Shown one piece after another: positions 4,303-31,718 of a DNA stretch of 44,364 nt. The first letter of the stretch is position 1, and every line of letters starts with the position of its first letter. The notes under the pieces are model-generated. The model worked only from the letters and a program-made list of their open reading frames with translations, made no database searches and was not told where the DNA came from. Position numbers and translations under genes: made by a program. Source of the stretch: Bacteroidota bacterium (GTDB taxonomy: Bacteria; Bacteroidota; Ignavibacteria; Kryptoniales; JAKASW01); NCBI GenBank assembly GCA_021845665.1, contig JAJZVO010000036.1, positions 1 through 44,364 on the forward strand. Reading direction: 5' to 3'.

Positions 4303-7272
4303 TCAAAGCCCGACGCTCTTCAACAACTCACTTGCAATGTTGGAACTCTCCAGCCTCATCATGGTCTCCTCAGAAGTGCCGAAGCTCAGAAGGTTTATGC
4401 TTCCATACCAGACAATGCGTTCATCTATGACTGCAAATTTCTGGTGCACACCGGATTTGAATAGCAGATTGACACCATCGTTTCGCAAAATATCTAAGGT
4501 TTCACGCAATTGCGGCCTATCCTTTTCCTTGAAGTCTTCGCATGGCCTCGTCATGATCGCCACCTTGATGTTCTTATCAATCGACCTTCTGAAGTGTTCA
4601 TGGAACTTCATTATCCGCCTTCTCATAACGAAAGGGCTGATTATGAAAATGTTCCCGTATGCATTATCAATGTCGCCGCAGTAAACCGGATAGAAACTGC
4701 TCGTGTCGAAAATGAAATTCGCGGCTTCCGGCGCGGCCGCGCCACCTTTGATTTTATATCCGAAGGAAGCATATCCGTTGAGTCGTTTGTTGTACATCTT
4801 TTCAAACATTCGCACATGCGTGTCGACATAGTCATAGACTTGAACCTCTTTCTTGTTTTCATGTGTTCGGTGTAACCTGCCGACGTATTGTTGTAAAGTC
4901 CCTCTCCAGGAAATTGGCATGGCCAGGAACAGTGTATCGAGACGGGGCTCATCAAAACCTTCACCTATATATTTCCCCGTTGCGACTATAGTCAAAGGAT
5001 TCTGTTGAGGTACATCGGAAATCTTTCTAAGTGCTTCTCTGGTTTGCCTGACCCCGTATTTGCCTGTCAGAGGAATTACATCCGCCATCTTCTCTCTTAT
5101 CTTGCCTGCAAGTGTTTCAACATGGGAGGTCCTTTCAGTCAGCACAAGCGAACTCCTGCCAGCCTCGTAATTCGCAATCACGTCATTGGCTATGAGCCTG
5201 TTCCGCATTTCGCTGGCTGCTAACTCAGAATAGAGCTCTTGGATGCCAGGTTCTTTTCTGTCCGAAACCGATACGTTACTATCAACTGGAATTATAAAAC
5301 TTGTGAATCTTGGAATCACATAATGATCGAACGGCGACTGCTCCAACTGTGTCCTTGTATCCGCTTTGTACCTCATCGGTCCGCAGTGCATGAATATAAT
5401 TGGATGATGCCCGTCCAATCTCACCGGCGTCGCAGTCAACCCGTAAACGTATCTGGCGTGAAGGTTCTTGAGAACCTGCTCAAAAGTGAAGGCAGGGACA
5501 TGGTGGCACTCATCCACAATGACCATTCCATAATACCTTACCCGCTCGGAGATCTCATAGTTTCTGTGCAGAGATTGCATGATTCCGACGTCGACTATAC
5601 GGGTTGGACTATCTATGTCTCCACCAATTTCGCCTATTAGTGAGACTTGCTTCGGTCTCCCGCGCCTCTTCTCCGGTTGAGGGACTTCTTCTTTGATGGT
5701 TAGGAACTCTGATAGCTTCTTTACCCACTGCGAAAGGAGTTGTTTTCTGTGGACTATTACGAGTGTGCTCGTTTTCCTCTCTGCAATCAGTTTTGCAGCT
5801 ACTACAGTTTTGCCGAATGCGGTCGCAGCAGCCAACACGCCGTTATCAAATTTCATTAACTCATTTACTGCCGGAAGCTGTTCATCTCTCAGCGTCCCAT
5901 TAAACCCGATATCGATACTCCTGCCAGGATTGGTTTCGTCTGAAATGGTCGGTTCGACATTAAGTTTGCTCAATAAAGCCTGCACCTCTGCCAAGCAACC
6001 CCTCGGCAGGCAGAGATACTTGTCCGTCTCGTCGGAGCATGAGATGATTCTTGGCTTGTTGTACGTTGGCAAGCGCATCGCCTGGGCTTTATAAAACTCA
6101 GGGTTCTTAAATGCCGCCAACCTTTTTAACGCGTTCAATCCCCTCTGGGAGATGCCCTCCTTCAAAACATAAATCATATTTGCCTTTACAACGCTTGGCT
6201 TCTCTGGGAAATCGTCCTTCTTCAACGAAATTGTCGGCGTTCTCTGCCATGGTCTTTGTGTCTCCGTGTCGTCTCTTCTTAATACCCCAAGATCGTTTCC
6301 GATTCCGAAGATAGAAAGTCTTTTCGTCAATGAACCGATTTCGTCTTCGGATAGTTTCCTCATCGAACTCAAGAAATCCCACTGGTCTGGATACGGTTTC
6401 AATTGCTCATCGATGAAAACGCTGTTCCCCTTCTTCCGCGGTTCCATCTGCAAGGGAAGTGCAATCAGATTTTCGAACCCTCCCTTCGGCATAGTATCCT
6501 GATTGGGAAAGAATCTGTCGTATGACTTGAACCCGATTTCATGCCTCTTGTTCATCGAGTAGGTCAGCAGGGCCGAGCCGAACTTTCGGGCCGAAGCTGC
6601 CGGTATTGGTTCTTCAAAGAAGAACCAGAGGTGAGCGCCGTCGCCTGAACGTGACCGTTCCGCCGCAATGGGGATGTTCAACTCGGAACACACGTTTCTC
6701 AACACCGATATGTCTTTTTGCCAACCGTCATCGTCGAAGTCGATTGCCAGCAAGTAACACGTGTCATCCTGGCACATAGGATATAGTCCGGCTGTGATCT
6801 TTCCACTGAGATGCTCTTCAACGACACTGTCATTCAAAATCTCGAACGACTTGTTACTGCACTCATAGCATTTGATTCGCGGCTTGTTGCAGATGCCGGA
6901 CTTCCATTCGTTGAGGCAGGCAGGCGAGTATCCGGATTTTCCATTTGAATTTTGCCATCTCTTCGCATAGACATCGGTTCTTCCTCTAAAGAGTGACATG
7001 AAGAGATCGATCTTTGCTTCAGATCTACTTTGCTGATTCACTCTTCGATTCGGATTCGTCCTGACTGCGTCGGTTAGAGCATCGTTGGGGATACCGGTTA
7101 TGTTTTCGGGACTCGCCTTTTCAACTTTCCTTGGTGCCAAGTCATTTGGATGATCGAGCGCCGCGAGCTGGGCTTTGAGTGTCTCGACCTCCGCCCTCAG
7201 CCTATCGTTCTCGATTAGCAGGGCCTGATACTTATTCAGAAGCGACAGGACATTTTTCTTGTCAGTCGTCAT
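4303..7272 (-). CDS. TOTE-type conflict protein: archaeo-eukaryotic primase + SF2 helicase + phospholipase D domain
   Basis: A 989-residue protein. Residues 1-45 form a coiled coil. Residues 88-305 match the primase domain of TOTE conflict systems: FRGRTDVYAKRW, a Cys cluster C119, C128, C135, C138 that could bind zinc, catalytic AIDFD with D178 and D180, SGDGAH with H214, and SYDRFFPNQDT..GGFENLIALPLQ. Residues 455-830 are a superfamily 2 helicase: TAFGKT Walker A (K488), VDECHH (587-591), GLTATP (611-616) and YVGRLHR. The C-terminal 110 residues hold a single phospholipase D motif, HQKFAVID (H943, K945, D950). Primase-helicase-nuclease fusions of this sort are placed among anti-phage or anti-plasmid systems. 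It is transcribed away from the divergent AbiE pair 98 bases off, and both lie between direct repeats. The domain call is firm; the defence role is family-based inference. Confidence 0.85.
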   Translation of the reverse strand: MTTDKKNVLSLLNKYQALLIENDRLRAEVETLKAQLAALDHPNDLAPRKVEKASPENITGIPNDALTDAVRTNPNRRVNQQSRSEAKIDLFMSLFRGRTDVYAKRWQNSNGKSGYSPACLNEWKSGICNKPRIKCYECSNKSFEILNDSVVEEHLSGKITAGLYPMCQDDTCYLLAIDFDDDGWQKDISVLRNVCSELNIPIAAERSRSGDGAHLWFFFEEPIPAASARKFGSALLTYSMNKRHEIGFKSYDRFFPNQDTMPKGGFENLIALPLQMEPRKKGNSVFIDEQLKPYPDQWDFLSSMRKLSEDEIGSLTKRLSIFGIGNDLGVLRRDDTETQRPWQRTPTISLKKDDFPEKPSVVKANMIYVLKEGISQRGLNALKRLAAFKNPEFYKAQAMRLPTYNKPRIISCSDETDKYLCLPRGCLAEVQALLSKLNVEPTISDETNPGRSIDIGFNGTLRDEQLPAVNELMKFDNGVLAAATAFGKTVVAAKLIAERKTSTLVIVHRKQLLSQWVKKLSEFLTIKEEVPQPEKRRGRPKQVSLIGEIGGDIDSPTRIVDVGIMQSLHRNYEISERVRYYGMVIVDECHHVPAFTFEQVLKNLHARYVYGLTATPVRLDGHHPIIFMHCGPMRYKADTRTQLEQSPFDHYVIPRFTSFIIPVDSNVSVSDRKEPGIQELYSELAASEMRNRLIANDVIANYEAGRSSLVLTERTSHVETLAGKIREKMADVIPLTGKYGVRQTREALRKISDVPQQNPLTIVATGKYIGEGFDEPRLDTLFLAMPISWRGTLQQYVGRLHRTHENKKEVQVYDYVDTHVRMFEKMYNKRLNGYASFGYKIKGGAAAPEAANFIFDTSSFYPVYCGDIDNAYGNIFIISPFVMRRRIMKFHEHFRRSIDKNIKVAIMTRPCEDFKEKDRPQLRETLDILRNDGVNLLFKSGVHQKFAVIDERIVWYGSINLLSFGTSEETMMRLESSNIASELLKSVGL

Positions 7273-8891: not shown

Positions 8892-9813
8892 GGAGAGAAG
8901 TCCCTATCGCTCACCTCTGACTCTTCCTCAACTAATCCCAAGCTCCACCCGGAAAATAACCACTGTTACTTTACTCGCTCACTCCTACCGGGTGAAGATC
9001 CTTCCAACAAAATGCAACGTGAGATCTTTGGCGCGGGATACCTTACTCTTTCAGGGAGTATCACAAAACGCGGACCTCCGTTGCGAATCATCGCGACTCA
9101 AGGATTTAATCTCCTTCCAGGGTGCTCCATCATTGGTCCTGTCGCCATCTACTCAGCTGATTCGGTTTCGATCCCCTCCGGTGTCAATCTCGTCAACACA
9201 GTTATTTTTTCACCCGCAAGCATTTCGCTTCGACGCGGTGCGAACGTAACTGCCCAACTCTTTTCACCCGTGATACGGTGCGAACCGAACTCTGTAGCGA
9301 ACTATCCCTCGCTATTTGTCTCTGTCAGTCTTTCTGACACTTCAGGTGTGGAGCAGCTCGTGGATATTGCCAGCAATGCGAAGGTATCGGGAGCGATTGT
9401 CTTGCGCGCTGGTCGTGGTATATCCTTGCGGGAGGCACTCATTATGTATCGATGCGATAAACTCTGCCGCTCTGTACTCGAGCAGTGACTCAGCCCTTGT
9501 CCTCGGGACAAGTTCAGGTGACACAACCACGTACAAGTTTTCTCAAAGCAACGTTTGGAGAGACGGCGTCTCTTTCCTGCCCTCGGATTCATCGGGCCAC
9601 GACATTGCAGGTGAAGCGGCCTTGCGTATTACGGCATTCATTGCCTCCTCACTGGATACGGCAACGGGACTTGGATTGCGGGCCAGGCAATGGTACATCC
9701 GCGTCAACGGCAGGCTGGGAGACTTGGCCGATTCATCCATCGTTCGGACGGTATCGATCTTGTCGTCAAGCGATCTGGTCCGGACAGATTTGGCGGAAAC
9801 TCCCACGCAGTGA
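8886..9813 (+). pseudogene. Frameshifted surface or secreted protein, unknown
   Basis: Two open frames appear to be parts of one gene. The first (8886-9488) reads as successive short beta strands rich in V, I, S, G and N (LTLSGSITKRG, SIIGPVAIYSADSVSIPSGVNLVNTVIFSPASISLRRGANVTAQLFSP), a pattern seen in beta-helical or bactofilin-like proteins. The second, in another frame (about 9430-9813), goes on with NSAALYSSSDSALVLGTSS..TYKFSQSNVWRDGVSFL. There is no ribosome binding site, and the frame changes near 9420-9480. No family is recognised. Given the decayed neighbours it is best read as a gene remnant. Confidence 0.4.
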
Positions 9814-21748: not shown

Positions 21749-21826
21749 ATGATAATCGGACTTCTAATCTCGATAGGTCTTTTGGTGTACCTGGTTTATA
21801 CCCTGATTAAGCCGGAGAAATTCTGA
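21749..21826 (+). CDS. kdpF: Potassium-transporting ATPase small subunit KdpF
   Basis: A 25-residue peptide reading MIIGLLISIGLLVYLVYTLI followed by KPEKF: one membrane segment and the short KPEKF tail typical of KdpF. It is directly followed by kdpA, whose ATG overlaps its stop (TGATG at 21824-21828). KdpF stabilises the KdpFABC complex in the inner membrane. GAGG at 21733-21736 may serve as ribosome binding site. Confidence 0.9.
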   Translation: MIIGLLISIGLLVYLVYTLIKPEKF

Positions 21827-23541
21827 TGCTCATCGCGACGTTTGGTATATTCGGCATGCGCGACGTTTTGCAGATCGGCGTGTTCCTGATCGCTTTGATC
21901 GTGCTTACCCCGCTGCTCGGTTCGTTCATGGCGAAAGCGCTGAACGGCGAAAGGAATTTTCTTACGCCCATCTTCGGCGGTTTGGAGAGATCTTTCTACA
22001 GAATTTGCCGGATCGACCCTGAACAGGAGATGGATTGGAAAGAGTACCTTCTCGCGGTCATCGCTTTCAGCCTTGTCGGCCTGGTCGTGCTCTGGCTCCT
22101 CCAGGTGACTCAGGCTTACCTTCCGCTGAACCCGCAACATCTCCCTAATGTGTCGTGGGATCTCGCGTTCAACACAGCGGTCAGCTTCATGACAAACACG
22201 AACTGGCAGTCTTACGCCGGCGAAACGACGCTGAGCTATTTCGTTCAGATGGCCGGACTCACAGTCCATAATTTCGTCAGCGCTGCGGCAGGCATGGCGG
22301 TACTTCTCGCACTCGTCCGTGGGATCACCCGGAAGTCGAAGGAAGGTCTCGGAAATTTCTGGGCCGACCTTGTTCGCATGACGCTGTATGTTCTTCTTCC
22401 GCTTTCGGTCATACTCACCCTGGTGCTTGTCGGTCAGGGAACGGTGCAGACTCTATCGGGCTATGCTCACGCCACGACTCTCGAAGGCCAGAAGCAGGTG
22501 ATAGCCGTCGGACCCGCAGCATCGCAGATTGCGATCAAACAATTAGGCACGAACGGCGGCGGCTTCTTTAACGCAAACAGCGCGCACCCGTTCGAGAACC
22601 CGACCCCGCTGACCAATTTCCTGGAGCTGCTGTCGATTATTCTCATCGCTTCCGCCAGTGTTTACATGTACGGTAAGATGGTCGGGTCGACGCGCGAGGG
22701 CTGGGTGATCTGGGGAGTCATGCTCTCAGTATTTTGCATCATGCTGACGTTCTCACTTTACTCTGAATACAGCTTCCATCCTCCCTATGTGACGGCTCCA
22801 TCGATGGAGGGGAAGGAGACACGATTCGGGAACACGAACAGCATATTGTGGGAGGTTACCACAACGGTAACTTCAAACGGCTCCGTGAACTCGATGCACG
22901 ACAGCCTAACCCCGCTTTCAGGCATGGTAGGAATTGTCGACATGATGTTCGGCGAAGTTATTTTCGGCGGCATCGGTTCCGGACTTGCGAGCATGCTCCT
23001 TTTCGTCCTGCTGACTGTATTCATCGCGGGTCTTATGGTCGGTAGGACGCCGGAATACCTGGGGAAGAAAATCGAAGCCTACGAGGTGAAGATGTCGGTC
23101 ATCGGTGTCCTCGCTCCCGGTGCGGCGATACTGATATTCACTGCGATTGCATCAATTACAAAGGTCGGGTTATCCTCTTTGGGAAATAACGGCCCTCATG
23201 GCCTCTCCGAAATTCTATATGCGTTTACTTCCGGTGCGGCCAACAACGGGAGTGCATTCGCCGGACTGAATGCGAATACCGTGTTCTACAATGTCACGCT
23301 TGGAATCGACATGCTCATCGGGAGGTTTGTGCCGATAGCCGCTTATCTATCCGTGGCCGGCAGTCTCGCGAAGAAGAAAGCAGTGCCACCGTCAGCGGGT
23401 ACTTTCCCGACCGACTCCACACTCTTTGGCGTGCTTTTAGTCGGCGTGATAATAATAGTCGCGGCGCTTACCTTCTTCCCGGTTCTCGCACTCGGCCCGA
23501 TAGTGGAGCACTTCCTGATGCTGGCGGGAAAAACGTTTTAG
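21826..23541 (+). CDS. kdpA: Potassium-transporting ATPase channel subunit KdpA
   Basis: A 571-residue protein of normal length. It has about ten membrane segments and the four selectivity-filter regions of the SKT superfamily: NTNWQSYAGE, LGTNGGGFFNANSAHPFENPTPLTN, TVTSNGSVNSMHDSLTPLSG and FTSGAANNGSAFAGL. KdpA binds potassium on the outside and passes it through the inter-subunit tunnel to KdpB. Some residues before MRDVLQIG might not be translated if the later ATG is used. It follows kdpF with a one-base overlap. A 255-base gap separates it from kdpB, which is unusual for this operon. Confidence 0.97.
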   Translation: MLIATFGIFGMRDVLQIGVFLIALIVLTPLLGSFMAKALNGERNFLTPIFGGLERSFYRICRIDPEQEMDWKEYLLAVIAFSLVGLVVLWLLQVTQAYLPLNPQHLPNVSWDLAFNTAVSFMTNTNWQSYAGETTLSYFVQMAGLTVHNFVSAAAGMAVLLALVRGITRKSKEGLGNFWADLVRMTLYVLLPLSVILTLVLVGQGTVQTLSGYAHATTLEGQKQVIAVGPAASQIAIKQLGTNGGGFFNANSAHPFENPTPLTNFLELLSIILIASASVYMYGKMVGSTREGWVIWGVMLSVFCIMLTFSLYSEYSFHPPYVTAPSMEGKETRFGNTNSILWEVTTTVTSNGSVNSMHDSLTPLSGMVGIVDMMFGEVIFGGIGSGLASMLLFVLLTVFIAGLMVGRTPEYLGKKIEAYEVKMSVIGVLAPGAAILIFTAIASITKVGLSSLGNNGPHGLSEILYAFTSGAANNGSAFAGLNANTVFYNVTLGIDMLIGRFVPIAAYLSVAGSLAKKKAVPPSAGTFPTDSTLFGVLLVGVIIIVAALTFFPVLALGPIVEHFLMLAGKTF

Positions 23542-23796
23542 GAAACTCTGAACAGTAATTTCTAAATCCTAAACAAATTCAGAGATCAGAAGATTTAAAT
23601 GAGAAATTCCGTTAGGATAAGCAGATCGGAGCAACAAGAAAAGCGGCTATCATCGTCTGGATGCATGGCGCCAACTGTCGGCGGAAGGGTTTCTCCGAGG
23701 GTTTTGAATCTCGGATTTATTTAGAGTTTAGGATTTCGGATTTAGAATTTTAAATGAGGCTCGAATAGTAATCCGCGACTTTAAGGAATTAGAGAG
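23542..23796. repeat. kdpA-kdpB spacer with inverted AT-rich repeat
   Basis: TTTCTAAATCCTAAA (23559-23573) is largely complementary to GTTTAGGATTTCGGATTTAG (about 23726-23745). A middle portion of about 150 bases shows no gene. The arms resemble degenerate AAATCC/GGATTT runs. AAGGAATTAGAGAG leads into the kdpB ATG. Confidence 0.5.
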
Positions 23797-25899
23797 ATGG
23801 ACAAGAAATCAGATTATAGACTAGCATCGACGTTCGACAGAAAAATAGTTGTTCAGGCGCTGGTGGATTCGGTGAAGAAATTGAATCCGAAAACGCTTGT
23901 CAGGAATCCTGTAATGTTCGTCGTCGAAGTGGTCGCGCTTATCTCCACTTATATCGTGATTCGCGAGATCGCGATCGGCCGCGAGTCGCTCTTCAACATA
24001 CAGATAACTCTGTGGCTGTGGATCACCGTTCTCTTCGCCAATTTTGCCGAGGCGATTGCCGAAGGGCGAGGGAAAGCGCAAGCAGAGGCGCTGAGAAAGG
24101 CAAGATCCGAAACGACCGCCAGGAGAATCGAAGACGGCAAGGAAACTAAAGTAAATGCCCTCGATTTGAAGAAGGGCGACATCGTCGTTTGCGAAGCGGG
24201 CGATGTAATACCCGTCGATGGAGTTGTCATAGAAGGTATCGCGAGCGTTGACGAGTCGGCAATAACCGGCGAGTCGGCCCCGGTCATACGCGAGAGCGGT
24301 GAGGAGAGAAGTGCGGTGACCGGCGGCACAAGAGTGCTCAGCGACCGCATAGTCGTACGGGTTACCGCCGAACCGGGCGGGACTTTCATGGACAAGATTA
24401 TCGGTCTCGTCGAAGGGGCTAAGCGCCAGAAGACACCGAATGAAATAGCGTTGACGATACTCCTTTCGGCGCTGACTATCGTGTTCCTTCTTGCAGTTTC
24501 GACCTTTCCTGCATTCATGATGTACAGCGGAAAGGCATCGGGGATTTCCGTAAGGCCATATATAACTCTTCCGATTCTCGCGTCGCTCCTGGTTTGTCTC
24601 ATTCCTACGACGATTGGTGGTCTCCTCAGTGCAATCGGGATCAGTGGTATGGACCGGCTGATCAGGAAGAACGTTATCGCGACCAGTGGACGGGCTGCAG
24701 AGGCGGCCGGAGACGTCGACGTCCTCCTCCTCGATAAGACCGGCACCATAACTCTCGGGAACAGGATGGCGAGCGACTTCGTACCCGCCCCCGGGATCCC
24801 AGTCGAGCGCCTCGCGGATGCGGCGCAGCTCTCCTCGGTCGCAGATGAAACCCCGGAGGGAAGATCAATAGTGGTTCTCGCGAAGGAGAAGTACGGAATG
24901 CGGGCGAAGAAGGTGCGGGACGTCGGCGCTACGTTCATACCATTTTCGGCGCAAACGAAGATGAGTGGCGTGGAAATCCCTGCAACCGATGGGCTCGGGC
25001 CGCGCTCTATAAGGAAAGGATCGGGAGAGGCGATAAAAAAGTATGTGACGGAACTGGGAAAGAACTTCCCGCAGTCGGTGCAGAAGAATCTTGAAGAAAT
25101 AGCCCGAGCGGGCTCCACACCGCTCGTCGTCGTCGAGAACGGAGACGTGCTCGGAATCGTACAGCTGAAAGATATCGTGAAGGGTGGAATAAAGGAGAGA
25201 TTTGCCCAGCTCAGAAAGATGGGAATCAAAACCGTCATGATAACCGGCGACAATGCTTTGACAGCGGCGGCCATTGCGGCAGAAGCCGGTGTCGACGACT
25301 TCATTGCCGAGGCGAAGCCGGAAGATAAACTCGGCAGGATCCGCGCGGAGCAGGCCAGCGGACACCTTGTCGGAATGATCGGCGACGGTACGAACGATGC
25401 CCCCGCGCTCGCACAGGCCGATGTCGGTATCGCCATGAACAGCGGAACGCAGGCAGCTCGGGAGGCTGGCAATATGGTCGACCTCGACAGCAACCCAACG
25501 AAGCTCATTGAAGTGGTGGAGACGGGGAAGAAGCTTCTCATGACTCGCGGCGCGCTTACGACCTTCAGCATCGCGAACGACGTGTCGAAATATTTCGCGA
25601 TAATACCTGCCATGACCGCGGCACTTTATGCTTTCGGCAAACCGGTCGGGCCGCTCGCGGCATTGAACATAATGCACCTGGGCTCACCCCAGAGCGCCAT
25701 ACTCAGTGCGGTCATCTTCAACGCGATAATCATTATCCTCCTCGTCCCCCTGGCGCTTAAAGGTGTAAAGTACAGACCGGTCGGTGCCAGTGCAGTGTTA
25801 AGAAGGAATCTCCTTATCTACGGCCTCGGCGGACTCGTAGCGCCGTTCATAGGAATCAAACTCATAGACATGCTGATCAACGCTCTCAAGATTGTTTGA
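23797..25899 (+). CDS. kdpB: Potassium-transporting P-type ATPase subunit KdpB
   Basis: A 700-residue protein. All motifs of an active enzyme are present: [11 protein letters not shown] at the N-terminus, [16 protein letters not shown], the actuator-domain loop [25 protein letters not shown] in membrane helix 4, the phosphorylation site DKTGTIT with D313, nucleotide-domain sequence including FSAQTKMSG and [21 protein letters not shown], and the hinge [19 protein letters not shown] (G529-D534). D595 and K598 in [13 protein letters not shown] are the membrane-helix-5 charges that link transport to ATP use. It is the energising subunit of KdpFABC. The comparison with the second KdpB-like protein downstream makes its intact motifs useful as a reference. 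Confidence 0.97.
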
Positions 25900-25909
25900 T
25901 GGTGACAAA

Positions 25910-26485
25910 ATGAAAACGCATCTTTGGAATTCATTAAAAATGCTTCTCGTGATGACTGTCTTCACTGGACTCATTTATCCGCTCGTGATGACTGCGATAG
26001 CTCAAATAGTCTTTCCGAAGCAGGCGAACGGGAGCATGATCGGGATAAACGGCAAGCTCGTCGGTTCGAAGCTGATAGGACAGAATTTCACCAGCGACAA
26101 ATATTTCTGGCCGCGTCCTTCGGCGATCGGTTATAATCCGCTGCCTTCCGGAGGGAGCAACTACGGTCCGACGAGCGACACATTGAAAAAGCTGGTGGAA
26201 ATGAGGAGGAGAGAATTTATCCGGCTGAACGGCCTTCCAGCGAACGCGAATGTTCCGCCGGACATGCTTTACGCATCTGGCAGCGGTCTTGATCCGGACA
26301 TCAGCCCCGAGTCGGCAGAGCTCCAAATCGATCGCGTCGCCCGCGCGAGAGACTTTGACAGCCTGCAGACCGCGGCGTTACGGAAACTTGTGAAGTCTCA
26401 CATAGAAAAACCTCAGCTTGGTTTCCTGGGAGATCCGAGAGTCAATGTTCTTGAACTTAACATCGCGCTGGACTCGCTTCGCTGA
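25910..26485 (+). CDS. kdpC: Potassium-transporting ATPase subunit KdpC
   Basis: A 191-residue protein starting at ATG 25910, ten bases after the kdpB stop, with GGTGA before it. One N-terminal membrane segment (LLVMTVFTGLIYPLVMTAIAQIVFP) is followed by the periplasmic domain with the family blocks NGSMIG, GSKLIGQNFTSDKYFWPRPSAIGYNPLPSGGSNYGPTS, GSGLDPDISPESAELQIDRVARAR, and the ending RVNVLELNIALD. It is a full-length, standard KdpC, which stabilises the complex. The pseudo-KdpB gene begins 16 bases beyond its stop. Confidence 0.96.
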   Translation: MKTHLWNSLKMLLVMTVFTGLIYPLVMTAIAQIVFPKQANGSMIGINGKLVGSKLIGQNFTSDKYFWPRPSAIGYNPLPSGGSNYGPTSDTLKKLVEMRRREFIRLNGLPANANVPPDMLYASGSGLDPDISPESAELQIDRVARARDFDSLQTAALRKLVKSHIEKPQLGFLGDPRVNVLELNIALDSLR

Positions 26486-26501
26486 AACGTTCGCGGGGAA
26501 A

Positions 26502-28196
26502 ATGAAACGAATCGTTGCGGAGTGCCTGTCCGGACTGACTCCCGGGAAAGTAGCAGGCGACCCTGTCCGGCTTGCTCTTCTGTTAGGCGCGGTAGCATCT
26601 ACGGCCTCCCTTGTCTTTACTTCAAAGCATTTAACGGGTTTCAATGTCGCTTTGACTTTTCTGATCTGGCTTATTCTATCTGAGACAATTGTTTCGCACG
26701 CCCTTGTGAAAATACATTCAGGCGTATCCGTAAACGGAACAGCCCGTGGTGCCAATTTGCCGTTGGCACGGAAGCTCGTTAATGGGCTTGAGGATCAAGT
26801 CCCGGTTAGCTCACTCCGAAATGGCGATCTGGTGTTATGTGAGACTAATGAATTGATACCTGCGGACGGTGTAATCGTCCAGGGAACGGCCATTGTCGAT
26901 GAATCGGCGATTACTGGTCAGTCCCCGCCGGTACTGCGCGAAAGCGGAGGAGGTGGGAGTGCAGTGTTCGCCAAGACGACGGTGCTTGGGGGCCGAATCA
27001 TAGTTAGTGTGACCGCGAAAGAACGGAAAGTTGTTATCGACCCAGTAGCTTCGGCCGTCGAGAGAATAAAATACCAGATGACATCGGATGAAAGGAAAAT
27101 GGCCATTCCTCTCTGGCTCCTGGTTGTCGGCTTCTCGGTCGCGTTCGTGGCACTCCCGTTTCTTACAGTTGACAGGATGAATTCGGCTGAATATTTTATG
27201 AGGGCCCTGATGAAAACGCCGGCGGTCATCTCCATCCTGGTATGTGCCCTCCCGCTGACAGCTGCAGAACTTCTAAATATCGCCGCCCTGTGCGCGGTGT
27301 CTCGCCTTGTGCGGAAGAAGATAATTCCTGCGAGCATGAATGCCGTAGAGATTTCCGGGCTTGTGGATGTACTCCTGCTCGATGAGGAGGAAGTGATAGC
27401 ATTCAACAGGCAAAGTGCGAAAGGGAGTGTGATGAGCAATGAAGCCGTGTCCGATGATGATTGCGACGGAAGCGATTATCAAAGTGCAGTCCGGTTATTT
27501 CCTTCGGAGAAAATTCACGAACTCGGATTGAGAACCGTGCTTTCGGCCGACTCGGACCGAGGGGAAGGGTTTGCCGCGGCGATAGGAGCCGTAAGCTGCT
27601 TATCCGGCGGGAGACCGGAAAACAAGCTCGCGACAATCCAAAGCGAGCGTTCGTCCGGCGCTATAGTGGCCGTCGTTGGAGATCACGATGACATCGCGCC
27701 TCTGGCAAGGGATGCGAATCTCTGTTTCATAGTCGACGGCGGTGCAGAGGTGCCGGACGGAAATCCGAATTCCATCGGACTGAACGGAAGGCCGAACAGG
27801 CTGATAAACGCAATTGAGACAGGCAGACGTCTGTGCCAGGTTGAAAACCGGCTTACTCATTTTTCAGCTGGCGTGACCTTGTCAATGGCTCTTCTCTCTC
27901 TGTTTCCTCTTCTCGCGACATTATGTGGGAGCAGGGAAGTCGCATCCATCTCTCCATATCTGAATTTCCTTGGACTGTCGTCGGCACATGCGGCAATATT
28001 AGATATGTCGGTCTTTACGGCAATCTCGTTCGCCACGCTTTGTTCCATGACCGCAAGATCTCTAAACGGCAGCGCTTTCAGGTCGGGACTCCTAACCAAT
28101 GCGGACCCAAGTCTGATCGCAACGGCTGGATTCGTCGCCCCGTTGGTCACCGTGAAGATGATAGATTTGATCTTCGTTGCTTTCAGATTAATCTAA
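26502..28196 (+). CDS. KdpB-like pseudo-ATPase lacking all catalytic motifs
   Basis: A 564-residue protein. ATG 26502 follows GGGGAA and the kdpC stop; a TTG at 26418 would overlap kdpC and is less likely. It aligns to KdpB end to end: seven hydrophobic segments in the same order, [23 protein letters not shown] (Kdp[21 protein letters not shown]), LVCALPLTAAELLNIAALCAVSRLVRKK (Kdp[14 protein letters not shown]..), VDVLLLD, ETGRRL, and the ending GFVAPLVTVKMIDLIF. Yet TGES is TGQS (Q140), DKTGT is D294-[12 protein letters not shown] is GDHDDIAP (393-400), TGD is SAD, the helix-5 D and K are gone, and roughly 100 residues of nucleotide-binding domain are missing. It cannot be an ion-pumping ATPase. 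The frame is open throughout, so a non-catalytic role in the Kdp complex or its control is likely. Confidence 0.85.
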   Translation: MKRIVAECLSGLTPGKVAGDPVRLALLLGAVASTASLVFTSKHLTGFNVALTFLIWLILSETIVSHALVKIHSGVSVNGTARGANLPLARKLVNGLEDQVPVSSLRNGDLVLCETNELIPADGVIVQGTAIVDESAITGQSPPVLRESGGGGSAVFAKTTVLGGRIIVSVTAKERKVVIDPVASAVERIKYQMTSDERKMAIPLWLLVVGFSVAFVALPFLTVDRMNSAEYFMRALMKTPAVISILVCALPLTAAELLNIAALCAVSRLVRKKIIPASMNAVEISGLVDVLLLDEEEVIAFNRQSAKGSVMSNEAVSDDDCDGSDYQSAVRLFPSEKIHELGLRTVLSADSDRGEGFAAAIGAVSCLSGGRPENKLATIQSERSSGAIVAVVGDHDDIAPLARDANLCFIVDGGAEVPDGNPNSIGLNGRPNRLINAIETGRRLCQVENRLTHFSAGVTLSMALLSLFPLLATLCGSREVASISPYLNFLGLSSAHAAILDMSVFTAISFATLCSMTARSLNGSAFRSGLLTNADPSLIATAGFVAPLVTVKMIDLIFVAFRLI

Positions 28197-28347: not shown

Positions 28348-31035
28348 ATGTCAGAGTATGAAGATAACAGACCGAATCCCGACGAACTTCTGAAGGCCTT
28401 GAAGAAGGAGGATGAAAGAAGCGGAAAAGGCAAGCTCAAGATATTCTTCGGGATGTGCGCAGGCGTCGGGAAGACGTACGCCATGCTCAGTGAAGCAAGA
28501 GACGCGGTGGCCAAGGGCGTAGACGTTGTCGTGGGATATATAGAAACTCACAAGCGGATGGAGACGGCGGAGCTGGTCCTGGGCCTGGAGGTGGTTCCAC
28601 GAAAGAAGGTCGAGTACCGAGGCGCGGAACTGGAGGAGATGGATATCGATGCTATCCTTGCGCGGAAGCCGAAGGTTGTTCTGGTCGACGAGCTCGCTCA
28701 CACGAATGCACCGGGGAGCCGTCATGCCCGCCGCTATCAGGATGTGCAGGAAATACTTGCCAACGGGATAGATGTTTATACGACACTGAATGTCCAGCAT
28801 CTCGAAAGCAGGGCCGATACAGTTGCCCAAATTTCTGGCAGTATAGTCAGGGAAACGGTGCCCGATTCAATCTTCGACGCCGCCGATGAGATCAAGATAA
28901 TCGACATATCGCCCGACGAACTTCTCAAGCGGCTGAAGGAAGGAAAAGTCTATGCGGCTGAGCGCTCCAGACAGGCCGTCGAGAACTTCTTCAAGGAGGG
29001 GAATCTTTCGGCCTTACGCGAAATGTCTTTGAGGGTGACGGCAGAGCGCGTGGATCACCAGATTCGTGAATACAGACGCGGACAGAATATCTCCAGTCCC
29101 TGGAAGTCCGGTCAGAGACTCGTCGTGGCCATAAGCCCGAGTCCGCATTCAGTCTCCGTTATCAGGTGGGCGAGGCGAGTCTCTCACACGATGGACGCGA
29201 CTTGGGTTGTTGTTTACGTAGACAGGTCGGACAAGCTATCCGAGGAACAGCGCGACCAGCTTGCGAAGAATATAAAGCTGGCGAGGGAGCTGGGCGCAGA
29301 GGTCGTGACGACGTCCGGAGTCGATATCGCGAACGCGCTTATTCGTGTCGCGCGCGAACAGAACGCCAGCCAGATCCTTGTGGGCAAACCTGATCGCTAC
29401 ATCTTCTCCCGGGCTGCGCGGCTTATAGACAACCTGATGCAAAGAAGCACCGACCTCGATATCTACATAGTCGGTCAGGAGGGGAGCCGCTCAAAGCGGA
29501 AAATCCAATCCGTCATTCCCTGGCCGCAGTCGAGTGCGGTTCAGTATCTTACAGCCGTTCTGCTTGTCCTTCTTGCGGCGATCGTAAGTTTTCCTTTCCA
29601 GGGTTATATCGGTTATAGGACCGTTTCGTTTATCCTCCTTCTTGTCGTGTCGCTTCTCCCGCTGAAGTTCGGGCCCGGGCCTACCGTATTGGCTGCTGCA
29701 TTTGGTGCCCTATCGTGGGACTTCCTCTTCATCCCGCCGCGCTTTACGTTCTCAATAGGGAACCTTGAGGACACGCTCCTTGCAGCCATGTTCTTCGTGG
29801 TAGCAACGGTGACGGGCGTCCTTTCCGCACGAGTGAGGAAGAGAGAGAAGATTATTCGTCAGCGCGAGGCGAGGACATCGGCACTGTTCGGCCTGACAAA
29901 GGATTTGTCTTCGGCTCATTCACAGGACGAGGTAATTACGACCGCCGTCTCGAACATCAAGAAGTATTTCGATGCAGATGTTGCCTTCATCCTCGGCGAT
30001 GCCGAAGGAGAGATGGCCAATACTCCTCACCCTGCCAGCTCCTTCAAGCCGGATGTGAAAGAGTCCAGTGTTGCTGCCTGGGTCTACTGGAATGAGAAGA
30101 AAGCCGGCAAGAATACGGATACGCTTCCTTCTGCCCACGCTACCTATTTCCCGATGTCCGGACCGCGCTATCCGCTCGGTGTCATCGGCGTGAAGTTTCC
30201 CGACGATGCGGAACTCTCTAACGACCAGGAGTCCCTCCTGGAAAATTTCATATCCCAGATCACTTCAGCTATTGAACGGGAGCTCTTGAACGATGTCAAC
30301 AGGAAATCAATTGTTGTTGCCGAATCGGAGCGTTTGTACAAGACTCTCTTCGACTCGATCTCCCATGAGTTCCGAACGCCCATCGCGACGATTCTGGGCG
30401 TGTCGGAGAATCTCCTCGGGCACGAGTCCGAACAGCGTACAGGCCTGAGGGAACAGAGCGTAAAAGAGATCCATGTCGCGGCCGAGAGGCTTAACAGGCT
30501 TGTAGCCAACCTGCTCGATATGACAAGGCTGGAATCCGGCATGATCCAGCCGAAACTCGATTGGTGCGATCTTCGGGATGTGCTCAATCATGCATTGAAG
30601 AATTTGGAAAGGGAGCTTGAAGGGCGCAATGTATCGGTAGACGTCTCGGATGATGTCCCGCTCATGAAGCTCGACTTCGGGCTTGTCGAGCAGGCGTTGA
30701 CAAATCTCATACATAACGCGGCGCTTCACACTCCTTCAGGCACCGGCATGATGATCAGATCGTATCTTGAAGAGGGGGAAACGTGTGTAATCTCGGTAGC
30801 CGACAATGGGCCGGGCCTTCCGCGCGAGGACATCAACAGAGTGTTCGAAAAATTCTACAGAGCCCAAAACGGAAAGTCAGGAGGTACAGGCCTCGGCCTG
30901 ACTATCGCCAAAGGTTTCGTTGAAGCTCACCACGGCACGATTACGGCGCGAAACCGTACCGAGGGCGGCGCGGAGTTCGTCATCAGGCTCCCCATAACTG
31001 AGACCGTGAGTAAAGACAGCGAGGAGACACTCTGA
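28348..31035 (+). CDS. kdpD: Potassium sensor histidine kinase KdpD
   Basis: An 895-residue protein with TGAGGTG before ATG 28348. The domain order is standard. An N-terminal KdpD domain with Walker A GMCAGVGKTYAML and VLVDELAHTNAPGSRH..RYQDVQEIL..GIDVYTTLNVQHLES comes first, then a universal-stress-like domain (about 250-370; VVAISPSPHSVSVIRWARR, GKPDRYIFSR), then four clustered membrane segments (about 395-500; YLTAVLLVLLAAIVSFPFQGY and onward). A GAF-like region, a HisKA domain with H673 in SISHEFRTPIATILG, and a HATPase with NLIHNAALHTPSG, DNGPGLP and GGTGLGLTIAKGFVEAH follow. It senses potassium or ionic stress and phosphorylates KdpE. Its stop overlaps the kdpE start. Confidence 0.97.
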   Translation: MSEYEDNRPNPDELLKALKKEDERSGKGKLKIFFGMCAGVGKTYAMLSEARDAVAKGVDVVVGYIETHKRMETAELVLGLEVVPRKKVEYRGAELEEMDIDAILARKPKVVLVDELAHTNAPGSRHARRYQDVQEILANGIDVYTTLNVQHLESRADTVAQISGSIVRETVPDSIFDAADEIKIIDISPDELLKRLKEGKVYAAERSRQAVENFFKEGNLSALREMSLRVTAERVDHQIREYRRGQNISSPWKSGQRLVVAISPSPHSVSVIRWARRVSHTMDATWVVVYVDRSDKLSEEQRDQLAKNIKLARELGAEVVTTSGVDIANALIRVAREQNASQILVGKPDRYIFSRAARLIDNLMQRSTDLDIYIVGQEGSRSKRKIQSVIPWPQSSAVQYLTAVLLVLLAAIVSFPFQGYIGYRTVSFILLLVVSLLPLKFGPGPTVLAAAFGALSWDFLFIPPRFTFSIGNLEDTLLAAMFFVVATVTGVLSARVRKREKIIRQREARTSALFGLTKDLSSAHSQDEVITTAVSNIKKYFDADVAFILGDAEGEMANTPHPASSFKPDVKESSVAAWVYWNEKKAGKNTDTLPSAHATYFPMSGPRYPLGVIGVKFPDDAELSNDQESLLENFISQITSAIERELLNDVNRKSIVVAESERLYKTLFDSISHEFRTPIATILGVSENLLGHESEQRTGLREQSVKEIHVAAERLNRLVANLLDMTRLESGMIQPKLDWCDLRDVLNHALKNLERELEGRNVSVDVSDDVPLMKLDFGLVEQALTNLIHNAALHTPSGTGMMIRSYLEEGETCVISVADNGPGLPREDINRVFEKFYRAQNGKSGGTGLGLTIAKGFVEAHHGTITARNRTEGGAEFVIRLPITETVSKDSEETL

Positions 31036-31718
31036 GCGAGAAACCGATTATACTCGTCATAGACGACGAGACACAGATACGCCGTCTGTTGGAGCTCACT
31101 CTCGAGTCGGATGGCTATTCAGTCCGTTTGGTCGGAGCGGGTAAAGAGGGAATTGCCAAAGCAGCATCAGAGCGGCCCGAGCTGATAATCCTCGATCTCG
31201 GTCTGCCGGACATCGACGGCGTCGAGGTCCTCAGGAAAATTCGCGATTGGTCTGAAGTTCCCGTGCTCGTCCTTTCGGTCCGCGACGCGGAAACCGATAT
31301 TGTGGCGTGTCTTGACGCCGGTGCCGACGATTATCTGACGAAGCCCTTCCGGACAGGCGAACTCCTCGCGCGTGTCCGCAACGCCCTGAGGCATCGTCCC
31401 TCCCAGCAGGATACAGCGGTATTCAGCGTGCACGACCTGCAGATCGATCTGACCGCGAGGACTGTAAAAAAAGGGAAGGAATACGTGAAGCTCACCGCAA
31501 CTGAGTATGCGCTCCTCTCGCTTTTTGTAAGGAATGCCGGGCGGGTTCTGACTCACAACTTCATTCTCGAACAGGTCTGGGGACCCGCATTTTCAGATGA
31601 GACGCAATATACACGGGTGTACGTCGGACAACTGCGGAAGAAGATCGAAGACGATCCTTCAAAACCGAAGATCATACTTACCGAATCGGGTATAGGTTAC
31701 AGGCTCAGTTCTGAGTAA
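31032..31718 (+). CDS. kdpE: Response regulator KdpE, apparently with a CTG start
   Basis: A protein of about 228 residues. The receiver domain has EKPIILVIDDETQIRRLLELTLE at the N-terminus (acidic pair DDE), phosphoacceptor D55 in LIILDLGLPDIDG, and YLTKPF with the conserved Lys. A C-terminal OmpR-type winged helix follows (LTATEYALLSLFVRNAGRVLTHNFILEQVWGP..YTRVYVGQLRKKIE). The first strand of the receiver lies upstream of any ATG, GTG or TTG. CTG 31032 sits five bases after GAGGAG (31021-31026) and overlaps the kdpD stop, so it is the best start candidate; starting at TTG 31089 would delete the active-site acidic residues. It should activate kdp and perhaps the barrel gene through the shared blocks. 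Confidence 0.92.
   Translation: MSEKPIILVIDDETQIRRLLELTLESDGYSVRLVGAGKEGIAKAASERPELIILDLGLPDIDGVEVLRKIRDWSEVPVLVLSVRDAETDIVACLDAGADDYLTKPFRTGELLARVRNALRHRPSQQDTAVFSVHDLQIDLTARTVKKGKEYVKLTATEYALLSLFVRNAGRVLTHNFILEQVWGPAFSDETQYTRVYVGQLRKKIEDDPSKPKIILTESGIGYRLSSE

Follow-up and report, generated by a model that had tools for sequence, protein, structure and literature searches.

KdpB is the catalytic subunit of KdpFABC, a P-type ATPase for which E. coli structures are available (5MRW, 7LC6 and 7NNL). Its regulator KdpD has been described as a tandem serine/histidine kinase (PMC11018627, Nat Commun 2024), and in E. coli it phosphorylates KdpB directly at S162 through an N-terminal domain with Walker A and B motifs. 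That report states that the KdpB substitution E161Q lowers phosphorylation by KdpD by 64%, the glutamate being helpful without being strictly required, and that S162T abolishes it, and that KdpB unable to bind ATP or to be phosphorylated at D307 is still a KdpD substrate (see also PMC7535926). It presents the regulation of the serine-kinase arm as still to be characterised; in the sections consulted the substrates are KdpB and laboratory mutants of it, and a second substrate or decoy is not described. Catalytically dead paralogues that are kept beside an active relative have been described elsewhere. For instance, the abstracts on the trypanosome AdoMetDC prozyme (PMC5201418) and on a dead deoxyhypusine synthase paralogue (PMC3663545) report that both activate a soluble enzyme as a heteromer.

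Here we analyzed a 44,364-nucleotide stretch of Bacteroidota DNA (the window) that encodes, beside a normal KdpB, a catalytically dead KdpB paralogue for which we coined the name KdpX. KdpX resembles KdpB in its predicted fold, domain order and membrane helices, in an actuator (A) domain with a TGxS motif, in the helix-4 residues P264 and T266, and in its place in the kdp operon. Unlike KdpB, it has neither the nucleotide-binding (N) domain nor the D583/K586 pair, it is encoded next to a normal kdpB, and its dN/dS is ten times higher. With the E. coli system of KdpD and KdpB S162, as set out in PMC11018627, it shares the A domain and the serine used, and its neighbour KdpD shares the serine kinase's Walker A and B motifs. 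Like the AdoMetDC prozyme and the deoxyhypusine synthase paralogue, KdpX stands beside an active relative, but it is a bacterial membrane protein encoded in an operon, and its partner is putative. Searches of the open-access literature brought up neither an inactive paralogue of KdpB nor a comparable pseudo P-type ATPase.

The kdpX frame within the kdp operon

The + strand of the window carries a full kdp operon in the order kdpF-like peptide, kdpA, kdpB, kdpC, kdpX, kdpD and kdpE. The kdpF-like peptide (21749-21826) is 25 residues long (MIIGLLISIGLLVYLVYTLIKPEKF) and is followed by kdpA (21826-23541), an intact kdpB (23797-25899) and kdpC (25892-26485). Beyond kdpX lie a full-length kdpD (28348-31035) and kdpE (31089-31718), all on the + strand. 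The window KdpD reads GMCAGVGKT and VLVDELAHTN, the Walker A (G-X5-GKT) and Walker B (DE) sequences of the N-terminal serine-kinase domain. The 255-nt spacer between kdpA and kdpB (23542-23796) is A+T-rich with repeated words (GAATTTAGGATTTCGGATTTAGAATTT-like); it is partly conserved in two genomes of the same genus (G007 and G004), with an extra insertion in G004. A promoter-like site lies inside kdpX (27169-27197; TTGACA-17-TATTTT, 10 of 12 positions), which could serve kdpD or could be due to chance. When the window was searched for known RNA elements, one distant tRNA was returned and nothing else.

The preliminary description placed an open frame of 564 codons between kdpC and kdpD (26502-28196), and this frame indeed has no internal stops. 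The ATG at 26502 is less likely to be the start: three close orthologues have no ATG there, and all read M[FY][LS]N at the position corresponding to 26445. From this sequence comparison, the most likely start is ATG 26445, so that kdpX runs from 26445 to 28196 on the + strand, overlaps kdpC by 41 nt and encodes 583 rather than 564 residues. KdpX residue numbers refer to the 583-residue protein. Because the two genes overlap by 41 nt, co-translation of kdpC and kdpX is likely.

As had been proposed, KdpX aligned with the same-operon KdpB: its first half, comprising helices 1-4 and the A domain, did so at 32% (E 1e-42), and its second half at 24% over a remnant of the P domain and helices 5-7. 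The homology to KdpB spans the A domain, the P domain and the membrane helices. The TIGR01497 kdpB profile matched with an E-value of 5e-54 and 183.5 bits, below its curated cut-off of 527.9, and the sole Pfam match of the frame at E up to 1 was the A domain (PF00122). KdpX is a relative of KdpB by descent and, by the features tested, not a functional KdpB. A recent duplication of the same-operon kdpB was rejected, as KdpX is only 28-32% identical to that KdpB and groups with other KdpX. The membrane helices are retained by hydropathy, and the predicted structure is a KdpB fold minus the N domain, in which the A domain is one of the best-modelled regions. The best solved match of the model is 7lc6_B (Z 26.9, 488 residues, rmsd 9.4), to be read with the middling pLDDT of the models (65.6 and 64.2) and with input alignments that held KdpB rows and lean the models to the KdpB fold.

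Distribution and genomic linkage to kdpD

Following the suggestion that a KdpB-like protein of this kind might recur in related species, we searched for orthologues and found that four further species of this Bacteroidota genus have an intact KdpX at the same place, upstream of kdpD. The genus sample comprises 13 genomes, of which 11 have kdp genes and 5 have KdpX. Identity to the window protein is 79% in G007, 65% in G003, 63% in G004 and about 30% in G012; the G007 match also occurs on contig JAKAGT010000020.1, a Bacteroidetes MAG. In all five genomes kdpX lies directly upstream of kdpD, with a small gene intervening in G007 and G004. KdpX is absent from the six other kdp-bearing genomes of the genus, where kdpD is preceded by kdpC (G001, G002, G005, G009 and G010, with gaps of 11-19 nt) or by kdpB (G011).

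Outside the genus, no KdpX was found in samples of 391 genomes of the class and 395 of the phylum; KdpB scored above the cut-off in 111 of the 391 class genomes. An overall view of the matches in the class genomes, of which many short ones reach contig ends, showed no second family of intact truncated KdpBs. An origin from a mobile element was rejected, given that no relative above 60% identity occurred in the plasmid collection and none in the viral contigs. Because its constraint is much weaker than that of kdpB and its presence within the genus is patchy, kdpX is an accessory and not a core part of the operon.

Some neighbouring genes also vary. A gene for a 107-residue membrane protein lies between kdpX (or kdpB) and kdpD in G007, G004 and G011 (about 9213-9535 on the + strand of locus L026, about 4305-3982 on the - strand of L028, and 6422-6745 on the + strand of L033). 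This protein has weak matches to UPF0060/YnfA and EamA, and within the genus its gene is found next to kdpD only. An apparent decayed remnant lies behind kdpX in G012 (L029, 8605-8806), and the gene is wholly absent from the window and G003. Two additional pump loci were noted (L030, L093): a second kdpABC on a separate contig of G007, and in G011 a second kdpB, of a third type, about 10 kb upstream of its kdpD-linked pump.

The pump genes of G011 and G012 are ordered C-A-B, unlike those of the other genomes. The KdpB proteins of these two genomes do not group within the genus KdpB branch (support 98), whereas their KdpD proteins fall inside the genus clade (support 100). At the level searched, no other KdpB was found in G012. 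Thus in G012 kdpX has stayed beside kdpD, and not with its parental pump, although the pump lineage is foreign, an argument for linkage to kdpD that is only suggestive because it comes from a single lineage. No KdpD residues separate the kdpX-bearing from the kdpX-less genomes. The position of E. coli KdpD W39, which according to PMC11018627 helps hold ATP, is Y in both groups alike.

Motif loss, origin and selection

We mapped the five KdpX onto E. coli KdpB positions. Each of the motif losses listed in the preliminary description was found again in the window protein: TGQS (T157-S160; 26913-26924) aligns with TGES162, DEEEV (D313; 27381-27395) replaces DKTGT, SAD stands for TGD, GDHDDIAP (27678-27701) replaces GDGTNDAP, and TLSM in membrane helix 5 (27876-27887) replaces D583-x-x-K586 with T and M at the two charged positions (all on the + strand). 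The loss of most of the N domain was likewise evident from the alignment with KdpB. The broader statement that every catalytic motif has gone needs to be narrowed, as the aspartate is retained in four of the five KdpX and TGES in two; for the other listed losses it stands.

DKTGT as a whole occurs in none of the five, the position of D307 being D in four and E in one. All five lack T265, the TGD motif, K357, R363, F377, D583 and K586. The N domain, including the ATP-binding residues F377 and K395, is almost wholly deleted. The helix-5 positions of D583 and K586 are T and M in four KdpX and I and G in G012, and in E. coli KdpB mutations of these two residues are generally not tolerated (PMC12629597). 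P264 and T266 of helix 4 are retained in all five. Because the N domain, DKTGT, TGD, GDGTNDAP and the helix-5 D/K pair are absent, the P-type cycle should not run in KdpX, with neither phosphorylation from ATP nor KdpB-like K+ movement to be expected. The canonical K+ site has lost its charged pair.

In two trees the five KdpX formed one side of a branch (support 95/96 and 97/93). Because the KdpX branches are long, we added two further tests of origin. In the first, 22 residues absent from every sampled KdpB proved common to the G012 KdpX and the remaining four, versus 10 in shuffled data, and none of 5000 shuffles reached a count as high. Derivation of the G012 KdpX from the KdpB of its own operon was rejected by an AU test (p 0.002) and is also contradicted by the shared derived residues; this KdpX is 33-36% identical to the genus KdpBs versus 31% to its own-operon KdpB. 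A signature, D-E-x-x-M-A-x-P-x-W, is newly fixed in all five at the linker between the A domain and helix 3. The trees and both tests indicate that KdpX arose once from a KdpB, and the placement of KdpX with a parent KdpB lineage has a tree support of 17/0.

To assess whether the gene is decaying, as a comparison of orthologues had been suggested to reveal, we computed dN/dS and counted stop codons. Pairwise dN/dS of KdpX is 0.21-0.32 (bootstrap limits 0.16-0.41); synonymous distances are high in places, and the KdpX sequences number only five. For kdpB in the same species pairs it is 0.01-0.03, about ten times lower, and the constraint on KdpX is weak relative to kdpB. The orthologues contain no stop codons versus 7-11 expected under neutral change; across the five genomes there are no frameshifts, and the gaps are in frame. 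With orthologues at the same place, these values favour the original proposal of a maintained pseudoenzyme over a decaying copy, and on this sequence evidence KdpX is very probably such a pseudoenzyme. Since the main motif losses are common to all KdpX, this selection acted largely after the motifs were lost.

The constraint is concentrated in the A domain (26760-27053, + strand), the best-conserved part of KdpX. Residues that are invariant in KdpB are kept by all five KdpX at 24 of 50 positions in the A domain versus 27 of 290 elsewhere (Fisher p 7e-10), and the excess persists when the P/N region is left out (Fisher p 2e-6). Five of the six close-orthologue pairs likewise have their lowest dN in this domain. 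The sixth, formed by the window and G007, includes an exchanged tract. This tract of about 840 nt (26970-27810, + strand) is 95-100% identical between the two, while its flanks are about 52-80% identical, a pattern that points to recent between-species recombination within the gene. The flanking kdp genes show high synonymous divergence between the window and G007 (dS 1.5-2.3).

Possible roles of KdpX

Three roles had been offered for KdpX: replacement of KdpB in the complex, inhibition, and a link to KdpD. Of these, the last is the one that the evidence favours, although it does not settle the matter. All five KdpX have an A domain with the serine equivalent to S162, in the context TGQS in three (Q before the serine) and TGES in two (E before the serine). 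As far as the sequences indicate, KdpX keeps the parts known to be needed for serine phosphorylation by KdpD. Because it keeps these parts and the neighbouring KdpD keeps its Walker motifs, the simplest role that fits is that of a substrate for the KdpD serine kinase, acting as decoy or in feedback; we give this tentative reading a probability of about 0.4. KdpX would offer a membrane-anchored A domain to the N-terminal serine-kinase domain of the neighbouring KdpD. By serving as decoy or as an alternative phospho-acceptor, it would absorb some of the inhibitory serine phosphorylation by KdpD, and the shut-off of the real pump would be delayed or softened. Alternatively, KdpX might feed pump abundance back to KdpD. 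In its most specific form, in which KdpX is a membrane-bound pseudosubstrate that vies with KdpB for the serine kinase and thereby determines the speed of K+ pump shut-off, the proposal is somewhat more tentative. We infer the expression of KdpX, its binding to KdpD, its phosphorylation at S160 and its effect on the pump. The same facts also fit a KdpX that docks on KdpD without being phosphorylated. TGES, including its serine, is widely shared among P-type ATPases, and the retained TGxS serine may for this reason reflect the A-domain fold alone.

KdpX could instead act as a dead subunit of a membrane complex, either replacing KdpB alongside KdpA and KdpC (and KdpF) or paired with KdpFABC. This would yield a complex that does not pump or is regulated, or else make KdpX an assembly factor or a dominant brake. 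In favour of such a subunit, the membrane helices are retained by hydropathy, the model is a KdpB fold without the N domain, kdpX overlaps kdpC by 41 nt, and P264 and T266 persist in helix 4. However, the membrane part is poorly conserved, with KdpB-invariant residues kept at 2 of 30 positions in helices 1-2, 6 of 42 in helices 3-4 and 10 of 65 in helices 5-7. In addition, KdpX remains in G012 where the pump is foreign, whereas a protein that partners KdpA and KdpC would be expected to match the pump it joins. The weak membrane conservation and the G012 case agree less well with a KdpA/KdpC partner, and we consider the dead subunit possible but rather unlikely.

Most of what argues for a substrate of KdpD, namely the linkage to kdpD, the bias of constraint to the A domain and the evidence from KdpD, would equally suit a membrane module that senses, for instance, turgor, membrane state or K+ on behalf of KdpD and works by protein contact without serine phosphorylation, with the A domain as no more than the docking surface. 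The signature fixed in all five KdpX at the linker between the A domain and helix 3 also agrees with a module of this kind. However, no ligand site was recognised in KdpX and the K+ site is lost, and such a sensor seems improbable.

A duplicate in slow decay, with selection relaxed and the frame kept open by between-species recombination, would fit a dN/dS about ten times that of kdpB, the patchy presence, the tract of about 840 nt exchanged with G007 and the decay in G012 of the small gene behind kdpX. It is difficult to reconcile with an upper bootstrap limit of 0.41, with five genomes free of stops and frameshifts, with new residues fixed in all five, and with an uneven constraint that is strongest in the A domain. 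The sequence data already largely refute it, and we consider it very unlikely. That the frame is an ordinary kdpB copy distorted by assembly or sequencing error, the kind of error which the preliminary description had raised as a possible source of the lost motifs, had no observation in its favour and is refuted to the point of having practically no chance of being right, as four further genomes carry intact frames and all five share the same motif losses.

If the decoy reading is true, KdpX would be a pseudoenzyme turned pseudosubstrate for a sensor kinase in bacteria, and it would act as a natural check on KdpD's recently discovered serine-kinase arm. It would also place a bacterial P-type ATPase scaffold in a non-transport use, of which we found no description. 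Because a dead copy of KdpB has been kept intact by selection next to KdpD, our results suggest that a dead enzyme is used to tune the KdpD sensor or the pump.
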